A stretch of DNA of 53,814 nucleotides from Thermoflexus hugenholtzii JAD2. GTDB taxonomy: Bacteria > Chloroflexota > Chloroflexia > Chloroflexales > Roseiflexaceae. Positions 24,451 through 31,253 of this stretch are shown piece by piece (position 1 is the first letter of the stretch; every line of letters begins with the position of its first letter). The translations under genes and the position numbers were made by a program. A model generated the notes under the pieces. That model was not told where the DNA came from. It worked only from the letters and a program-made list of their open reading frames with translations, and ran no database searches. The stretch covers positions 1 through 53,814 of the forward strand of contig CAMCVW010000020.1 in assembly GCA_945881915.1 (NCBI GenBank), read 5' to 3'.

Positions 24451-25383
24451 ATGCGCAAATTTCTTACTATCACATCTTGGATCGTCGGCATTTTGGTCGG
24501 ATTTGTGCTCGTGCTCGTCGCATCGATTGTGGTCGATCGCGCGCTAGCCTTGGGCAAAGTCGACGCCATGACCAATACCGTCATCCCCAACGGCAGTAAC
24601 CCGGCGGTACGCGCCTATGTCGCCAAACCCGAGGGCTCAGGGCCATTCCCCGTGGTCATCATGGTGCACGAATGGTGGGGCCTCAAAGACGAAATGATCG
24701 GCAAAGCGGACGAACTCGCCAAAGACGGGTACGTCGTGATCGCCCCGGATGTGCTCCGCGGCAATACGACCAGCTGGATTCCCACCGCAATTTACCAGGT
24801 CTCGACAACGAAAACGACGCAAATCGACAGTGACCTCGACTCGGTCATGCAGTGGGTGAGTAACCAACCCTACGCAGACCGCAACCGCATTGCCATTATG
24901 GGCTTTTGCTTCGGTGGCGGCACGGCATTACGCTACGGTATACAAACCCCGGCCATCAAAGCCACGGCGATCTTTTATGGGGCAACAATCACCGACCCCG
25001 CAATCCTCAAGTCACTCAATGGGCCTGTTCTTGGCATATTTGGGGCCGACGATACGATGATCCCCGTCAGCGAAGTCACGGCCCTCGAAGCAGGCTTGAA
25101 TGCTGCCGGGATCCCCAACGAAATCACGATCTACGAAGGTGAAGGACATGCCTTCGTCAAGAGTGTCGACGAAATCCAACAAGGCGGGAATCAGGGTAAA
25201 GCGTGGCAACAACTACGCTCATTCTTGGCAGCCAGTTTTTCGGCTCAGGGCTACACCCGCGTCCAGACGGTCGCGCACCGAGGTGCCACACCTGCAGCAG
25301 CAGAACGCTGGTCTACCGATCGGCTCATGCACCTCTATGTTTGCAATCTGGCAACGGCGCGCAGTGATATTCGCCACAAATAA
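24451..25383 (+). CDS. Dienelactone hydrolase-family protein with N-terminal membrane anchor
   Basis: This is an alpha/beta hydrolase of the dienelactone hydrolase family, which opens lactones in aromatic degradation and hydrolyses other esters. The nucleophile is Cys153 in GFCFGGG, the acid is the Asp pair 200-201 in GADDTM and the base is His233 in GEGHAF. The Glu of HEWWG near 74 is also conserved. Unlike the classical cytosolic enzyme, it begins with a transmembrane helix (residues 8-28), so the domain probably lies outside the membrane. After residue 265 there is a 45-residue basic tail without family counterpart. A GGATT ribosome-binding site precedes the ATG. Confidence 0.85.
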   Translation: MRKFLTITSWIVGILVGFVLVLVASIVVDRALALGKVDAMTNTVIPNGSNPAVRAYVAKPEGSGPFPVVIMVHEWWGLKDEMIGKADELAKDGYVVIAPDVLRGNTTSWIPTAIYQVSTTKTTQIDSDLDSVMQWVSNQPYADRNRIAIMGFCFGGGTALRYGIQTPAIKATAIFYGATITDPAILKSLNGPVLGIFGADDTMIPVSEVTALEAGLNAAGIPNEITIYEGEGHAFVKSVDEIQQGGNQGKAWQQLRSFLAASFSAQGYTRVQTVAHRGATPAAAERWSTDRLMHLYVCNLATARSDIRHK

Positions 25384-25472
25384 CCACATATGCGAACACC
25401 AACTATGGTACGCTAGACGTACGTGATTCCGGCGCATAATGTGCCCTAGGATGCAACGTGAAAAGGGGTTGT

Positions 25473-26378
25473 ATGGACAATCTGATTTTTTGTTTTAGTG
25501 TGTTGGTATTTGCAGCAATCGCCCTAGCAATCACCGGCGTCAAAATCGTACCGCAGGGATACGAGTGGACCATCGAACGCTTTGGACGCTTCCGGATGAC
25601 CCTCAAGCCTGGACTGAGCATCATCATCCCCTTCATCGACATGATCGGCCGCAAGGTCAACGTCCAAGAACAAGTCCTCGACATCCCTTCGCAAATTGTC
25701 ATCACCCGTGACAATGCGACGGTGCGCGTCGACGGCGTGTTGTTTTATCAAGTCTACGAAACACAGTTGGCGGCGTATCAGGTGTTCAATCTGCAAGCGT
25801 CGATCATTAACTTGGCATTGACGAATCTGCGTACTGCCATCGGCAGCATGGAACTCGACGAAGTGTTGGCAAAACGTGACGAAATCAACACCCGGCTCCT
25901 GTCGGCGCTCGATCACGCCACCCAGACATGGGGCACCAAAGTCACCCGCGTCGAAATCAAAGACGTCCTGCCCCCCGAAGACATCACCCGCGCCATGTCG
26001 AAGCAGTTGACCGCCGAGCGCGAAAAGCGATCGAAAATTCTCGAAGCCGAAGGCTTCCGCCAGGCCGAGATTCTCAACGCCGAAGGCCTCAAGCAGGCGA
26101 AAATCCTCGAGGCTGAAGGCATGTTGGCCTCGGCGCGTCTGCAAGCCGAAGCCCGCGAACGCCTCGCGAGTGCAGAAGCTGAGTCGACGCGTCTGTTGGT
26201 CGAAGCCGTCGGCAAACCTGAGGCTGCGTTGCAATACTTCATTGCACAACGCTACATCGATGCATTGCAAAAGCTCGGCGATTCGCCAGCCGCGCGCATG
26301 ATTGTCGTGCCAACAGACTTCTCGAACTTCGCCGGGGCACTCGGCGCCATCACCGAAATGATGAACAAAAAGGACTAA
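25473..26378 (+). CDS. SPFH/stomatin-family membrane-microdomain protein
   Basis: SPFH proteins oligomerise at membrane microdomains and often guard membrane proteases. A single helix (residues 3-21) precedes the SPFH domain (22-185; VPQGYEWTIERFGRF, then TRDNATVRVDGVLFYQV). The 190-250 region is a helical repeat rich in EAEG..QA.. units, typical of the QmcA/YbbK subgroup. The start at 25473 is favoured over the GTG at 25458 because AAAAGGGG lies seven bases before the ATG. It pairs with an NfeD gene three bases later, the usual stomatin operon partner. Confidence 0.94.
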   Translation: MDNLIFCFSVLVFAAIALAITGVKIVPQGYEWTIERFGRFRMTLKPGLSIIIPFIDMIGRKVNVQEQVLDIPSQIVITRDNATVRVDGVLFYQVYETQLAAYQVFNLQASIINLALTNLRTAIGSMELDEVLAKRDEINTRLLSALDHATQTWGTKVTRVEIKDVLPPEDITRAMSKQLTAEREKRSKILEAEGFRQAEILNAEGLKQAKILEAEGMLASARLQAEARERLASAEAESTRLLVEAVGKPEAALQYFIAQRYIDALQKLGDSPAARMIVVPTDFSNFAGALGAITEMMNKKD

Positions 26379-26381
26379 CCG

Positions 26382-26804
26382 ATGGATTCAGCATATTACT
26401 GGCTGTTGCTCGGTGTGTGCCTCATCGTCGCAGAAGCATTCATCCCAGGTGTGTTTGTATTGTGGATCGGAATTGCAGCCCTGGCGACAGCCGGGGTTGC
26501 GTTCCTCTTCCCCATGCTCGGCGTGTGGATACTGTTGTTTTTTGCAATAGTTACGATTTTGACAGCTTTTGTTGGTACAAAAGTATACATGATGATTACG
26601 TCATCGAAGCGTACGCTGAACGAGCTTGCCCAGCAACTTGTCGGGAAGCGCGGGGTCTGTATTGCACGGCTCAACGACCCGGATATTCGCATCAGAATCG
26701 ATGGTGTCGAGTGGGCCGCCCTGGCTGATGGCGTCATTGACAACGGTGATAGTATTATTGTCCTCCGATTTCAAGACGCCAAACCAGTGGTGCGCATTGC
26801 GTAA
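26382..26804 (+). CDS. NfeD-family membrane protein
   Basis: NfeD partners the adjacent stomatin-type protein. This short (140-residue) form, as in YbbK operons, lacks the ClpP-like protease domain of long NfeD. Three helices span residues 5-70, followed by a C-terminal OB fold (VGKRGVCIARLNDPDIRIRI near 87). The ribosome-binding site AAGGA overlaps the end of the SPFH gene, so the two are translated together. Confidence 0.92.
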   Translation: MDSAYYWLLLGVCLIVAEAFIPGVFVLWIGIAALATAGVAFLFPMLGVWILLFFAIVTILTAFVGTKVYMMITSSKRTLNELAQQLVGKRGVCIARLNDPDIRIRIDGVEWAALADGVIDNGDSIIVLRFQDAKPVVRIA

Positions 26805-26955: not shown

Positions 26956-27462
26956 ATGAACAACGATCTCATGACCATCCGACAGCTCGCTGACCGCGCA
27001 GGCGTCACACAACGAACCATCCGGTATTATACCGACGAAGGACTGATTGACGCACCGGTCGATAAGGTTCGCACCCCCCGATATACCGAGCGCCATCTGT
27101 TACAACTATTGGCTGCAGCGCGCTTGAAGTCCGGTTACCTGCCACTCCGTGTCATCCGTGCGCGGATGGCCGGGATGAGTGATCGTGACCTCAACGAAGT
27201 CATCAACAGTGCTTCTGTTGCCATCGAAGAATTGGTGACCGCTGATGTACCGAATGAAGTCAGTGCAAGCCATCATGTCGAGCGTGTTGTAGGCAGTGCC
27301 AAATCCGAATATTCTGTGCCCTCCGTCACGGAGGGGGTGAACGAATTGCGTTGGCATCGCTACGCTATCGACGAAGGGATTGAAATCCACTTCCGTGATG
27401 ATCGTATCATCGACAGTGGTGAACTCCGCCGCATCGGTGCTATCCTGCGCCGCAAACCATAA
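26956..27462 (+). CDS. MerR-family transcriptional regulator
   Basis: Residues 6-75 form the MerR winged helix: MTIRQLADRAGVTQRTIRYY, then the EGLI wing and TPRYTERHLLQLL. The C-terminal 90 residues hold no metal-binding Cys cluster and do not match a known effector domain; a conserved-looking block (ELRWHRYAIDEGIEIHFRDD near 125) may bind a ligand or partner. The gene starts downstream of a strong promoter with a dyad on its -35. It lies tail-to-tail with the Asp-rich gene and near the VWA pair, which it may regulate; this is inference from position. Confidence 0.9.
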   Translation: MNNDLMTIRQLADRAGVTQRTIRYYTDEGLIDAPVDKVRTPRYTERHLLQLLAAARLKSGYLPLRVIRARMAGMSDRDLNEVINSASVAIEELVTADVPNEVSASHHVERVVGSAKSEYSVPSVTEGVNELRWHRYAIDEGIEIHFRDDRIIDSGELRRIGAILRRKP

Positions 27463-27476
27463 TTCACCTTCTCGAT

Positions 27477-27511
27477 AACAACACCCCCGAGCAGTGCTCG
27501 GGGGTGTTGTT
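27477..27511. terminator. Bidirectional terminator between MerR and Asp-rich genes
   Basis: A perfect 16-bp stem (27477-27492 with 27496-27511) with a 3-nt loop lies between convergent genes. The ends of the stem itself supply the T-rich arms in both directions. Confidence 0.85.
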
Positions 27512-27518
27512 CTATCTC

Positions 27519-28199
27519 CTATACCGACTCGCCCGGAGTGTTGTAGTCAGGGCCCTCGTCCACTTTCGGAGAGGATGGCCGCTTGTATGGTCCCGGCCGC
27601 CGTCCATGTATCCATGCGCCAAAGATATCGAGATACCCTGTTTCGTGCACCCCTGCGCCTGCGCTCGCCGCGCTGATGTCGAACAACCTACCGATGTCTG
27701 CATCGTCGATCGCATATCCGTCGTCTTTCAACGACGCACCAAGCTGCGGGAGGATGTCCTGGTCGTCCCGGAGCATGTCGAAGTCGGTTGCCGTGGCGTG
27801 TGTGTCGTCTGCCGCGCTGCTCCCCTCGTCACTCAGCCCATCGTCCAAGTCCAAGAAGGCATCATCATCCTCGTCGTCATCGTCCTCATCATCTGCGTCG
27901 TATCCATCGAGCTCGGCATCGAAATCGAAGTACTCGTGTGCATCGGTGCGGAAGGATGGTCCTTGGGGCTCGGTCAACTCGGGGAACATTGTTGTCCACA
28001 ATGTGATGCGCCGCTTGATGCTACGCGTCTGCGCATACAGCTGGGCGAACTGCTCGTGGATTTCGTTCAAGCCCGTGCGGGCAGCGCCCGGCTCGGTAAG
28101 GATGACGACCTCACTCAGATACGAAAGCGCCGACGTGATTTCGTCGTGCGCTTGGTTTAGGTTGTACTGCAAACGCGTTGCGTTGAGTTTGTTGCTCAT
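27519..28199 (-). CDS. Asp-rich protein of unknown function in the VWA locus
   Basis: I do not recognise this 226-residue protein. Residues 1-80 are predicted helical (LQYNLNQAHDEITSALSYLS and following), perhaps a coiled coil. Residues 90-145 are extremely acidic, with up to five Asp/Glu in a row, and the rest is Gly/Pro-rich and disordered-looking. The start at 28199 has AAGGGAG upstream; a longer upstream frame is poor in protein features. It is divergent from the VWA pair through a shared 5' region. It could be a calcium- or cation-binding partner of the VWA proteins, which is speculation. Confidence 0.7.
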   Translation of the reverse strand: MSNKLNATRLQYNLNQAHDEITSALSYLSEVVILTEPGAARTGLNEIHEQFAQLYAQTRSIKRRITLWTTMFPELTEPQGPSFRTDAHEYFDFDAELDGYDADDEDDDDEDDDAFLDLDDGLSDEGSSAADDTHATATDFDMLRDDQDILPQLGASLKDDGYAIDDADIGRLFDISAASAGAGVHETGYLDIFGAWIHGRRPGPYKRPSSPKVDEGPDYNTPGESV

Positions 28200-28329
28200 T
28201 GTTGCTCCCTTTCTGTCTGCTGCGTTCCGTGATCCGTATGCCGATAAGGAACACATGCGCGTTGTTACATCGTCCGCTCCTCTGCTACAACAGCGACCAT
28301 ACCAGGTTGCTGTCTCTCTCAATGTGTTC

Positions 28330-28359
28330 ATAATACCACAATTGCGTAACATTCGTCAA
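28330..28359 (-). promoter_or_regulatory. Promoter of the Asp-rich gene (TTGACG-18-TATTAT)
   Basis: On the minus strand, TTGACG (28359-28354), an 18-nt spacer ending TGG and TATTAT (28335-28330) precede the gene. The -35 is 4 bp from the -35 of the opposite VWA promoter. Confidence 0.7.
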
Positions 28360-28363
28360 GCTA

Positions 28364-28392
28364 TTGACAATTACAGCATTTACTGTTATATT
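28364..28392 (+). promoter_or_regulatory. Promoter of the VWA gene pair (TTGACA-17-TATATT)
   Basis: TTGACA (28364-28369), a 17-nt spacer and TATATT (28387-28392) lie about 67 nt before the first VWA gene. Confidence 0.8.
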
Positions 28393-28459
28393 TACGTAGC
28401 AATGTGATTATGTATCATCACCAGAAAGAAATTCGAGCCCACCGTGAAAGGACGAGCAT

Positions 28460-29818
28460 ATGTCAGAAATACGCGTCATGACGAATCGAACCCACCTCAC
28501 CGATGAACGCGACGGAGCCGGGCGTGCCCAAGAACTCATCGTCCGAGCGACAGTCGTAGCCCCCGAACAGGCGCAGACAGCTAATCCGCGCATCCCATTG
28601 AACATCGCGATTGTCATCGATCGCAGTGGTTCTATGGCTGGACGTAAACTCGCCGATGCGGTGGCAGCCACCCAGCGCATCGTGAACCGACTGAGTAGTG
28701 ACGACCGGTGCACAATCGTCGCCTTCGACACTCACGTGGCGGTATTGGCAGACGGGAATCTGGTGAGCGAAGCGCAGCGCGATTTGATCCGGCATGCGCT
28801 GACTCGATTGAGGAGCGGATCGTCGACCAATCTGGCGGGCGGCTGGGATACGGCCGTGCGCGTTCTTTTGACCCATCACCGACCTGCTGCGTGCGTCAGT
28901 CGCGTCGTCTTGTTGACCGACGGGAACGCCAACATCGGCGTCCGTGATGCACAGACGCTCGGTCAGCAGGCTGCCATCTACGCCAACGTCGGGATTAGTA
29001 CGAGCGCCTACGGCCTCGGTCGTGGATACAACGAAGAAGTATTGCTGCAGATGAGTCGATCCGGCATGGGTAATCATCAGTTCATCGAACAATCAGCCGA
29101 TATCGACGGCTACTTCGGTCAAGAACTCCAAGAATTGTTTGCGGTGTCGCTGACGTCTGCAACGTTCACCGCCGACATCCCGGCAGGGTACACCGGCGAA
29201 GTCGTCGGCGGGATGCCCAATCACCGCACGGAATCGACGCTGCGCATCGACATCGGTACGATGGTCTCGCTCGAGCAGCGACACATCTACCTGCGCTTCA
29301 TGCCGCTGTCACTCACAGCCCGTGGCGAACAATCCCTGTCATTGGCTTTTGGGGGAGTCGACAGTCAACAGCAGAGTCAGTCGGTGACGGCAACTGCCAC
29401 GTGGACGTTGACGCCCAAGCACACGGCAGCCACGTACCCCGTCAATACAGATATCGAACAGGAAGCAATGCTCATCGATTTAGCGCAGACACGGGCCGAA
29501 GCCAATCGCCTCAATCAACAAGGACGATATGGCGAAGCAGGGTCGTACGTGCGTGAACGTCAATTGCGGAGCACCGTGTACGAGAAATTTTCGCTCTATG
29601 AACGCAGCGCAATGGACTTCGAGCGTCCATTTGACGATGGCGTGAGCAAAAAGCGCCTCGCTCGGTCACACATGTCGGCCCGTTTTTCGACCAAAGACTT
29701 AGCAGAATTACAACGGAATCTCGCTGATTTGATCCGCAGTGGCGGATCCACAGCCGAGATTGAAGCCGCCGAGTACATGATTACGGTGATGAAGCGTCTC
29801 TTGGGGATCAGTGCGTAG
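28460..29818 (+). CDS. Cytosolic VWA-domain protein 1
   Basis: The protein is built around a von Willebrand factor A domain with an intact MIDAS metal site: D54-x-S56-x-S58, T123 and D154 (VVLLTDGNAN). Residues 48-235 form the VWA fold, 240-335 a beta-sandwich and 340-452 a helical tail (TRAEANRLNQQGRYGEAGSY, then a region resembling protein 2). It has no signal peptide or helix, so it should be cytosolic, unlike most VWA adhesins. No MoxR ATPase, kinase or phosphatase lies nearby. It starts about 67 nt after a strong promoter and is followed by a paralogue, so both probably act in one complex. Confidence 0.85.
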   Translation: MSEIRVMTNRTHLTDERDGAGRAQELIVRATVVAPEQAQTANPRIPLNIAIVIDRSGSMAGRKLADAVAATQRIVNRLSSDDRCTIVAFDTHVAVLADGNLVSEAQRDLIRHALTRLRSGSSTNLAGGWDTAVRVLLTHHRPAACVSRVVLLTDGNANIGVRDAQTLGQQAAIYANVGISTSAYGLGRGYNEEVLLQMSRSGMGNHQFIEQSADIDGYFGQELQELFAVSLTSATFTADIPAGYTGEVVGGMPNHRTESTLRIDIGTMVSLEQRHIYLRFMPLSLTARGEQSLSLAFGGVDSQQQSQSVTATATWTLTPKHTAATYPVNTDIEQEAMLIDLAQTRAEANRLNQQGRYGEAGSYVRERQLRSTVYEKFSLYERSAMDFERPFDDGVSKKRLARSHMSARFSTKDLAELQRNLADLIRSGGSTAEIEAAEYMITVMKRLLGISA

Positions 29819-29862
29819 TCTGTGCAAATAGAAGCCCGAAGCAACACGAGAAAGAGGTTTGT

Positions 29863-31188
29863 TTGACACAAGCAATCAGCGTCACAATGAGTCGGAGCGC
29901 ACTTCAATCTCCCAACGGTGAACTGGTCATGGAAGTGAGTGTGCAAGCGCCGCACCGACAGGCACAGCACATCACACGCATGCCGTTCAACATTAGCATT
30001 GCTCTCGACGTCAGCTCGTCGATGGAGGGCGACAAAATTCGCCACGCGAAACAAGCAGCCCAGCGTATCATCGCGCGCCTCGAACCCCAAGACTGCTGTG
30101 CGGTGGTGACTTTTTCGCGCACGAGTCATGTCTTGTTCCCTAGTGCTGCGATGACGCCGGCGGCGCGTGCGGCAGCCATCGCCGAAATCGAAAAAACTCA
30201 CACAGACGGCAATACCGCGCTCTACGCGGGCTGGCACGACGCCGTCAGCACCGTCGAACATTCCGAACTCGGCGCGCAGGCAATCCAACGCGTTTTTCTG
30301 CTGACCGATGGGGAAGCCAACGTTGGTCCTACCGATCCCGACGAAATAGCCCGTGCCGTTGCTGCGGTGCAACAACGGGGCATCAGCACGACGACGTTCG
30401 GCTTGGGTGAAGGGTACAACGAACGACTCCTCGGATTGATGGCCAGCGCCGGAGAAGGCAACACATACTTCATCCAAGACGCTGACGACATCGACGCCTA
30501 CTTTGCCCAAGAGCTCGACCAACTATTCACCACGACGCTACGCAACACGCAGGTAATGGTAACCTTGCCCGACAATGTGTCCTACGAAATCGTCGGCGAA
30601 CGCAACCACAGCCGCACCGGTGGCGTGCTGAGCGTGCCACTTGGGGCATTGTTGAGCGGTGAAGCGCGGACGTTCATGCTCTACTTCCGCACCCACGACG
30701 CACCAATCGCATGCGGTGCATACCCAGTGATTGTTACGGTGACGGCCCTCGACGAACATTCTGCTGCCTACCATGCATCATGTACTGCGACGCTCACGGT
30801 AGCGGAACACGCAGTCATCCAATTGGAAGTCATTGAACAGCGGGCGGCAGCGCTCGATCGGGCCGCTATCGTCGCTCAGGCGTTAGCGTTCCACCAACGC
30901 CATGATTATGCGGGTGCGGTGGCATTGATTGCCAAACGCAAAGAGCAATATCCTATTTATGCACGCTTTGGGGTATATGATGCAGAGCTCGAACGGTTCA
31001 ATAATCGCATCAGTGCTTTTTCGATGAAGCGTGAGCGCATGCACGCCAACGACATGGTGAACAGCAGTACCGGAACCCTTACCAAATACCGACGCATGCT
31101 CGAGGTGCTCATCCAAAAAGGCGCAGATCCCGCCGAGATAGCCCGTGTGCGCGAGATGGTCGAAGCAATCGAAGAAAAATACCGCTGA
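29863..31188 (+). CDS. Cytosolic VWA-domain protein 2
   Basis: This is a paralogue of the preceding gene with the same three-part layout. The MIDAS is D49-x-S51-x-S53 (DVSSSM), T118 (DGNTALYAGW) and D149 (LLTDGEANVG). The VWA domain spans about 43-225, a beta-sandwich 230-325 and a helical TPR-like tail 330-441 (ALAFHQRHDYAGAVALI). The start is a TTG with AGAGG eight bases upstream; an ATG nine codons later is possible. It follows protein 1 by 44 nt and ends at a strong terminator. No membrane segment is seen. Cooperation with protein 1 is inferred from similarity and adjacency. Confidence 0.85.
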   Translation: MTQAISVTMSRSALQSPNGELVMEVSVQAPHRQAQHITRMPFNISIALDVSSSMEGDKIRHAKQAAQRIIARLEPQDCCAVVTFSRTSHVLFPSAAMTPAARAAAIAEIEKTHTDGNTALYAGWHDAVSTVEHSELGAQAIQRVFLLTDGEANVGPTDPDEIARAVAAVQQRGISTTTFGLGEGYNERLLGLMASAGEGNTYFIQDADDIDAYFAQELDQLFTTTLRNTQVMVTLPDNVSYEIVGERNHSRTGGVLSVPLGALLSGEARTFMLYFRTHDAPIACGAYPVIVTVTALDEHSAAYHASCTATLTVAEHAVIQLEVIEQRAAALDRAAIVAQALAFHQRHDYAGAVALIAKRKEQYPIYARFGVYDAELERFNNRISAFSMKRERMHANDMVNSSTGTLTKYRRMLEVLIQKGADPAEIARVREMVEAIEEKYR

Positions 31189-31215: not shown

Positions 31216-31253
31216 AAAAACCTCCTGGATTCAGTGAATCCAGGAGATTTTTG
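31216..31253. terminator. Bidirectional terminator between VWA and ROK operons
   Basis: CTCCTGGATT (31222-31231) pairs perfectly with AATCCAGGAG (31237-31246). Runs of A before and T after (ATTTTTG) allow termination from both sides. Confidence 0.9.

Follow-up and report, generated by a model that had tools for sequence, protein, structure and literature searches.

A MerR-family regulator gene is paired with a VWA protein gene in Chloroflexota and other phyla

We analysed a four-gene locus in contig CAMCVW010000020.1 of assembly GCA_945881915.1 (Roseiflexaceae, Chloroflexota); the whole stretch of 53,814 nt is referred to here as the window. The locus consists of genes for a MerR-family regulator (168 amino acids; 26956–27462, + strand), an aspartate-rich (Asp-rich) protein (226 amino acids; 27519–28199, − strand) and two paralogous von Willebrand factor A (VWA) proteins, VWA1 (452 amino acids; 28460–29818, + strand) and VWA2 (441 amino acids; 29863–31188, + strand), the latter two separated by 44 bp. 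The MerR assignment rests on PF13411 (E 3e-14) and PF00376 (E 5e-10), and those of VWA1 and VWA2 on Pfam VWA (E 9e-15 and 5e-20, respectively). Orthologues of MerR occupy the same place across the genus, and orthologues of the Asp-rich protein were found in all genus members examined. The MerR and Asp-rich genes end tail-to-tail around a strong hairpin (27477–27511), recognized by its inverted repeat and fold energy; it is a perfect inverted repeat, AACAACACCCCCGAG-CAGTG-CTCGGGGGTGTTGTT (fold −32.2 kcal/mol), and is probably a terminator acting in both directions. Another terminator-like hairpin, an 11-bp stem followed by a T run, lies 3′ of VWA2 (31222–31246, + strand). The initial annotation of this DNA had correctly described the layout, with the Asp-rich gene divergent from the VWA genes and tail-to-tail with MerR; its coordinates left out the MerR gene, which lies wholly before the start that it gave for the system (27519). 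It had also described the VWA proteins as paralogues with full metal ion-dependent adhesion sites (MIDAS) and no export signal, and this held. VWA1 and VWA2 are ~30% identical, and both keep the DxSxS, T and D residues (D54/S56/S58, T123 and D154 in VWA1; D49-S53, T118 and D149 in VWA2). No signal peptide was apparent in either protein, and the N-terminus of the VWA1 model is a β-strand.

To determine how widely the MerR and VWA genes are linked, we inspected the neighbourhoods of VWA1 relatives outside the genus; two loci with the VWA gene at a contig end, and likewise G365, were left out of the counts. A same-strand MerR gene lay directly upstream at 22 of the 23 testable loci in the class and at 8 of 14 loci elsewhere in the phylum, giving 30/37 in Chloroflexota. 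Other Chloroflexota VWA paralogues had no MerR gene within 1.5 kb (0/14 loci; Fisher p 9e-8 for relatives vs. other paralogues, with relatedness not corrected for). When the MerR link was mapped as a label onto the VWA tree it changed 7 times, compared with a mean of 19 for shuffled labels. The initial annotation would have been refuted if MerR and Asp-rich homologues never occurred beside VWA pairs; the outcome was the opposite, MerR nearly always adjoining a VWA gene of this clade.

The plasmid search extended the linkage beyond Chloroflexota. An annotated MerR gene was directly upstream of VWA in Deinococcota (Deinococcus deserti, D. taeanensis, D. sp. KNUC1210, D. ficus pDFI1, D. psychrotolerans and Meiothermus) and in two lineages of Cyanobacteriota (Picosynechococcus, Cyanobacterium and Synechocystis). 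In the single alphaproteobacterial case, Haematobacter, a MerR-type helix-turn-helix gene (PF13411) was directly upstream of VWA. VWA matches in D. ficus pDFI2, Thermus and Haloferax had no MerR upstream. A single-sequence MerR search of the plasmids gave no match, although the VWA search later found tailed MerRs there. MerR-VWA is an ancient pair that spans at least four phyla, and the Asp-rich protein is a later addition in this genus only. The gene arrangement is not due to chance: it is seen again in each genus member examined, and other phyla repeat its MerR-VWA portion. The proposal that MerR and VWA form one functional unit is therefore strongly supported, far beyond its original scope. 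No description of a MerR-VWA pair was found in a literature search that left out most subscription journals, and this pairing of a regulator with its partner is apparently undescribed.

The regulator shares with CadR, CueR, MtaN and other MerR proteins the N-terminal winged helix-turn-helix (PF13411, 53 bits vs. a cut-off of 21.6). It differs from them in having no cysteine, no known effector domain and a short tail of its own. The cysteine metal site of the metal-sensing branch is thus missing, so that the protein is not a classical metal sensor; it also scored far below the cut-offs of the MerR, CadR, CueR, ZntR and SoxR models. Solved MerR structures matched only the N-terminal part. Past the DNA-binding part, related MerRs share little except a short end, W-x-R followed by (P)G-x-E-L/I, which in the window protein is W133-x-R135 ... 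G141-x-E143 (27352–27459, + strand; defined from alignments of related MerRs). W133, R135 and E143 are invariant in an alignment of 15 Chloroflexota MerRs, and R135, G141 and E143 in an alignment of 11 MerRs from three phyla. In the MerR of D. ficus pDFI1 (L129) Asp replaces Glu, and Haematobacter (L132) keeps the motif as W-x-R...DLEL. Across these MerRs the acidic tail residue is nearly invariant.

The AlphaFold model of VWA1 (mean predicted local distance difference test score, pLDDT, 77) was compared with known structures by Z score and with Foldseek. The best full-length match was ArnB in the ArnAB complex (Z 26.1 over 365 residues, model residues 2–410), and vWA2/ArnE (5a8j) gave Z 23.8. 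The Catenulispora acidiphila VWA protein 4FX5 (Z 24.1 over 367 residues) has the same tripartite fold and was also a full-length profile match. The model has the ArnB-like architecture of a VWA domain inserted in a β-sandwich and followed by a helical domain; VWA1 is thus predicted to have the tripartite ArnB fold. In Sulfolobus acidocaldarius, ArnB acts with its partner ArnA to repress archaellum genes (PMC6509490). In a later structure of the complex, the zinc finger of ArnA sits on the β-sandwich and C-terminal parts of ArnB, and nothing pointed to direct binding of DNA (PMC12852372). ArnB resembles VWA1 in being a cytosolic VWA protein with a β-sandwich, a helical C-terminus and a retained MIDAS (PMC6509490, PMC12852372), and in that it works with a regulator from its own gene-control unit, as VWA1 would. 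The two systems differ in that ArnA, an FHA/zinc-finger protein for which no DNA binding was found, works with kinases, whereas the partner in the window is a DNA-binding MerR; sequence identity between ArnB and VWA1 is ~16%. No FHA/zinc-finger gene was present among the adjacent genes (MerR, Asp-rich, NfeD, SPFH, ROK), a genome-wide search for one not having been made.

Cytosolic VWA proteins are usually accompanied by MoxR ATPases. The initial annotation had found none at the locus, and the same applies to the whole genome (98.6% complete) as far as the Pfam AAA+ model AAA_3 (PF07726) shows; this model found a MoxR ATPase in 13 of 14 control genomes. In conflict systems built on MoxR, it is the VWA domains, with their MIDAS aspartates, that bind peptides (PMC7159879). 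The MoxR-VWA ternary systems (VMAP and others) resemble the window locus in their VWA domain and differ from it in the ATPase.

A promoter with 11 of 12 consensus matches, TTGACA-N17-TATATT with an extended −10 TG, precedes VWA1 (28364–28392, + strand). This block is kept across genus alignments, and its −35 box is degraded in G100, which has lost the VWA genes. The spacer contains an imperfect dyad, TTACAGCA-TT-TACTGTTA (28371–28388), which is near-perfect in G115 (TAACAGTA-TT-TACTGTTA). Its ACTGT core is conserved within the genus, and the genome has a single copy of the extended pattern when up to 3 mismatches are allowed. Because MerR proteins usually bind in the promoter spacer, the dyad is a candidate MerR operator.

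Every readable locus of the genus contained MerR, then an Asp-rich gene pointing away from the VWA side, and 0–2 VWA genes. Two VWA genes, and with them the full four-gene set, were found only in the window, G145 (on two contigs), G147, L079 and G102. G115 retains VWA2 only, G090 has at least VWA1 (a contig end follows), and G100 has lost both VWA genes and kept the Asp-rich gene. In G108, G146 and G110, VWA1 stands alone and is followed by a GrpB-like gene. In the sister clade, GrpB-like (UPF0157) genes, assigned by eye, stand where VWA2 would be (L044 9522–10067, L045 6673–7308, L046 2572–3186). The VWA1 and VWA2 sequences of the genus separate in the tree into two groups that are sisters of each other; therefore, the pair arose by duplication near the base of the genus and was followed by losses. 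The VWA pair of the initial annotation is accordingly present in the window, but the duplication is genus-specific and was lost in several species. The four-gene system that it proposed does not extend in full beyond these five genus members, other genera having no Asp-rich gene. A genome scan with VWA1 alone returned only three near relatives, all in freshwater Roseiflexaceae metagenome genomes; those relatives that bear a name come from freshwater metagenomes, under the label Roseiflexaceae or Chloroflexi.

The Asp-rich protein contains 35 Asp and 15 Glu in 226 residues, with 27 Asp within residues 86–160. A predicted helical N-terminus is followed by the acidic stretch and by a C-terminal motif, LF(D/G)...xIFG...DYN(V/T)PG, that is common to genus members otherwise 27–30% identical. 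Its structural model was of low confidence (pLDDT 39). It had no Pfam, NCBIfam or PADLOC match, a profile search of 250 other Chloroflexota genomes gave no relative, and no viral relative was found. A longer open reading frame reaching 28352 was dropped in favour of the start at 28199, because relatives shift out of frame upstream of that ATG. A single-sequence search had placed the protein in only half of the genus; this was rejected when gene positions revealed diverged orthologues in the rest. The ratio of nonsynonymous to synonymous change (dN/dS) of about 0.25–0.35 fits a genuine protein under loose constraint.

Most of the Asp-rich gene and the divergent promoter (27576–28399, ~0.8 kb) form a tract that is ~98% identical to G145, with dense differences outside it. 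The synonymous difference (pS) between the window and G145 was 0.11 inside the tract and 0.58–0.70 in flanking genes, whose synonymous sites are saturated, whereas G145 and its close relative G147 differed by 0.23 in the tract and 0.14 in MerR. This inverted order of relatedness indicates horizontal replacement, by exchange with a relative of G145, that took in the Asp-rich gene and promoter region and left out the VWA genes; less probably, the tract is an assembly chimera in a metagenome-derived contig. An overlapping antisense gene or RNA was also considered as the cause of the DNA conservation and was rejected. Pairwise rates showed normal evolution of the Asp-rich gene between close species, so that exchange explains the conservation.

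Third genes beside MerR-VWA vary. ClpP adjoins the pair in G139 (ClpP-MerR-VWA), G009 and G021 (MerR-VWA-ClpP) and MerR alone in G148 and G149; in most genomes ClpP is present and usually lies away from MerR-VWA. The ClpP genes of the five Chloroflexota loci are at L050 8302–8967, L068 2–499, L069 2527–3102, L060 3650–4267 and L061 5782–6423. In Synechocystis pSYSA, a VWA-Macro fusion (L128 3932–5698) directly follows a tailed MerR near CRISPR genes, and in D. ficus pDFI1 a microbial-type PARG gene (L129 4255–5094) directly follows the pair. A phosphatase gene lies beside the D. deserti pair, and HEPN/MNT-like genes are found in Picosynechococcus. These neighbours, each case being anecdotal, suggest a MerR-VWA core whose inputs or outputs change.

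We tentatively favour a conserved two-gene module in which MerR is a switch and the VWA protein its partner, acting either on the MerR tail or as a client-binding scaffold. We infer that the tailed MerR, as repressor or activator, would be made together with the cytosolic ArnB-type VWA protein, would bind the dyad in the VWA1 promoter and would have VWA as a metal-dependent peptide-binding partner. VWA might grip the MerR tail, whose invariant Glu would be the natural MIDAS ligand, and so tune MerR; or it might capture clients, with MerR reporting on their stress state. Within the genus, the divergent Asp-rich gene has split the operon and shares a divergent promoter region with VWA1, and VWA has been duplicated; the Asp-rich protein would be an accessory, possibly an acidic competitor or ligand. 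A broader version is rather unlikely: a widespread signalling principle in which the MIDAS metal grips the invariant tail acid, the VWA scaffold gates MerR, and lineage-specific third parts (ClpP, Macro/PARG domains or acidic decoys, of which the Asp-rich protein would be one) set input or output.

Several observations weigh against the two-gene module. Tailed MerRs also occur without an adjoining VWA: a second one in the same genome (C2:13888–14460; L067 4829–5488) has no VWA neighbour, those of G148 and G149 adjoin ClpP, and that of G100 was retained after both VWA genes were lost. Therefore, the tail cannot serve solely an adjoining VWA. The MerR of D. psychrotolerans (L133) departs from the tail motif, its acid being shifted or absent. 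In the ArnAB crystal the partner touches the β-sandwich and helical parts of ArnB and not the MIDAS (PMC12852372). The VWA1 promoter dyad is imperfect and MerR binding there is a guess, and G-C rich metagenome assemblies limit the neighbourhood calls.

The MerR protein might instead control transcription only, with VWA an independent peptide-binding adaptor or chaperone that feeds clients to, for example, a neighbouring ClpP. The recurrence of ClpP in five loci with differing gene orders favours this explanation; we consider it unlikely overall. Most MerR-VWA loci, including those of the window genus, have no ClpP nearby, and the conservation of the MerR tail would have to be explained in some other way. 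The original proposal, a VWA assembly under MerR control with the Asp-rich protein as its ligand or partner, appears quite improbable. Its gene is always between MerR and VWA in the genus and shares the divergent promoter region, its C-terminal motif is conserved, and MIDAS sites typically bind acidic side chains (PMC6509490). The proposal has some weak support; however, the gene is confined to one genus, MerR-VWA pairs elsewhere do without it, it persists in G100 without VWA genes, its dN/dS is near 0.3, and the exchanged tract excludes the VWA genes. Finally, MerR-VWA could be the sensor or threshold unit of a conflict or stress module with the variable third gene as effector. The Macro, PARG, phosphatase and HEPN/MNT-like neighbours, the fast evolution of VWA2, the gene loss and local exchange within the genus, and the peptide-binding role of VWA domains in MoxR-based conflict systems (PMC7159879) are all in line with such a module. 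We nevertheless regard it as very doubtful: no effector was found at the window locus, where PADLOC gave only a helix-turn-helix match, to MerR, and the neighbours at plasmid loci may be due to chance.

Bacteria commonly have VWA proteins with no MoxR ATPase, most of them with no assigned role, and the strong, ancient MerR link is the first concrete partner to test for them. The two-gene module would be a bacterial counterpart to archaeal ArnAB regulation, differing in having a DNA-binding partner. The nearly invariant acidic tail residue makes its mechanism sharply and cheaply testable, and the pair is present in culturable organisms (Deinococcus, Synechocystis and Picosynechococcus).

The flanking gene frame of the locus is kept within the genus. 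NfeD and SPFH genes (assigned via Pfam) lie upstream of MerR, and ROK (assigned by eye), SIS, glycosyltransferase and SDR genes lie downstream of VWA2. Dienelactone-hydrolase-like, SPFH (HflK-like) and NfeD genes (24451–26804 in the window) precede MerR in all genus members with sufficient contig. The second tailed MerR gene of the genome adjoins a GTP-binding sulfate adenylyltransferase-like gene.

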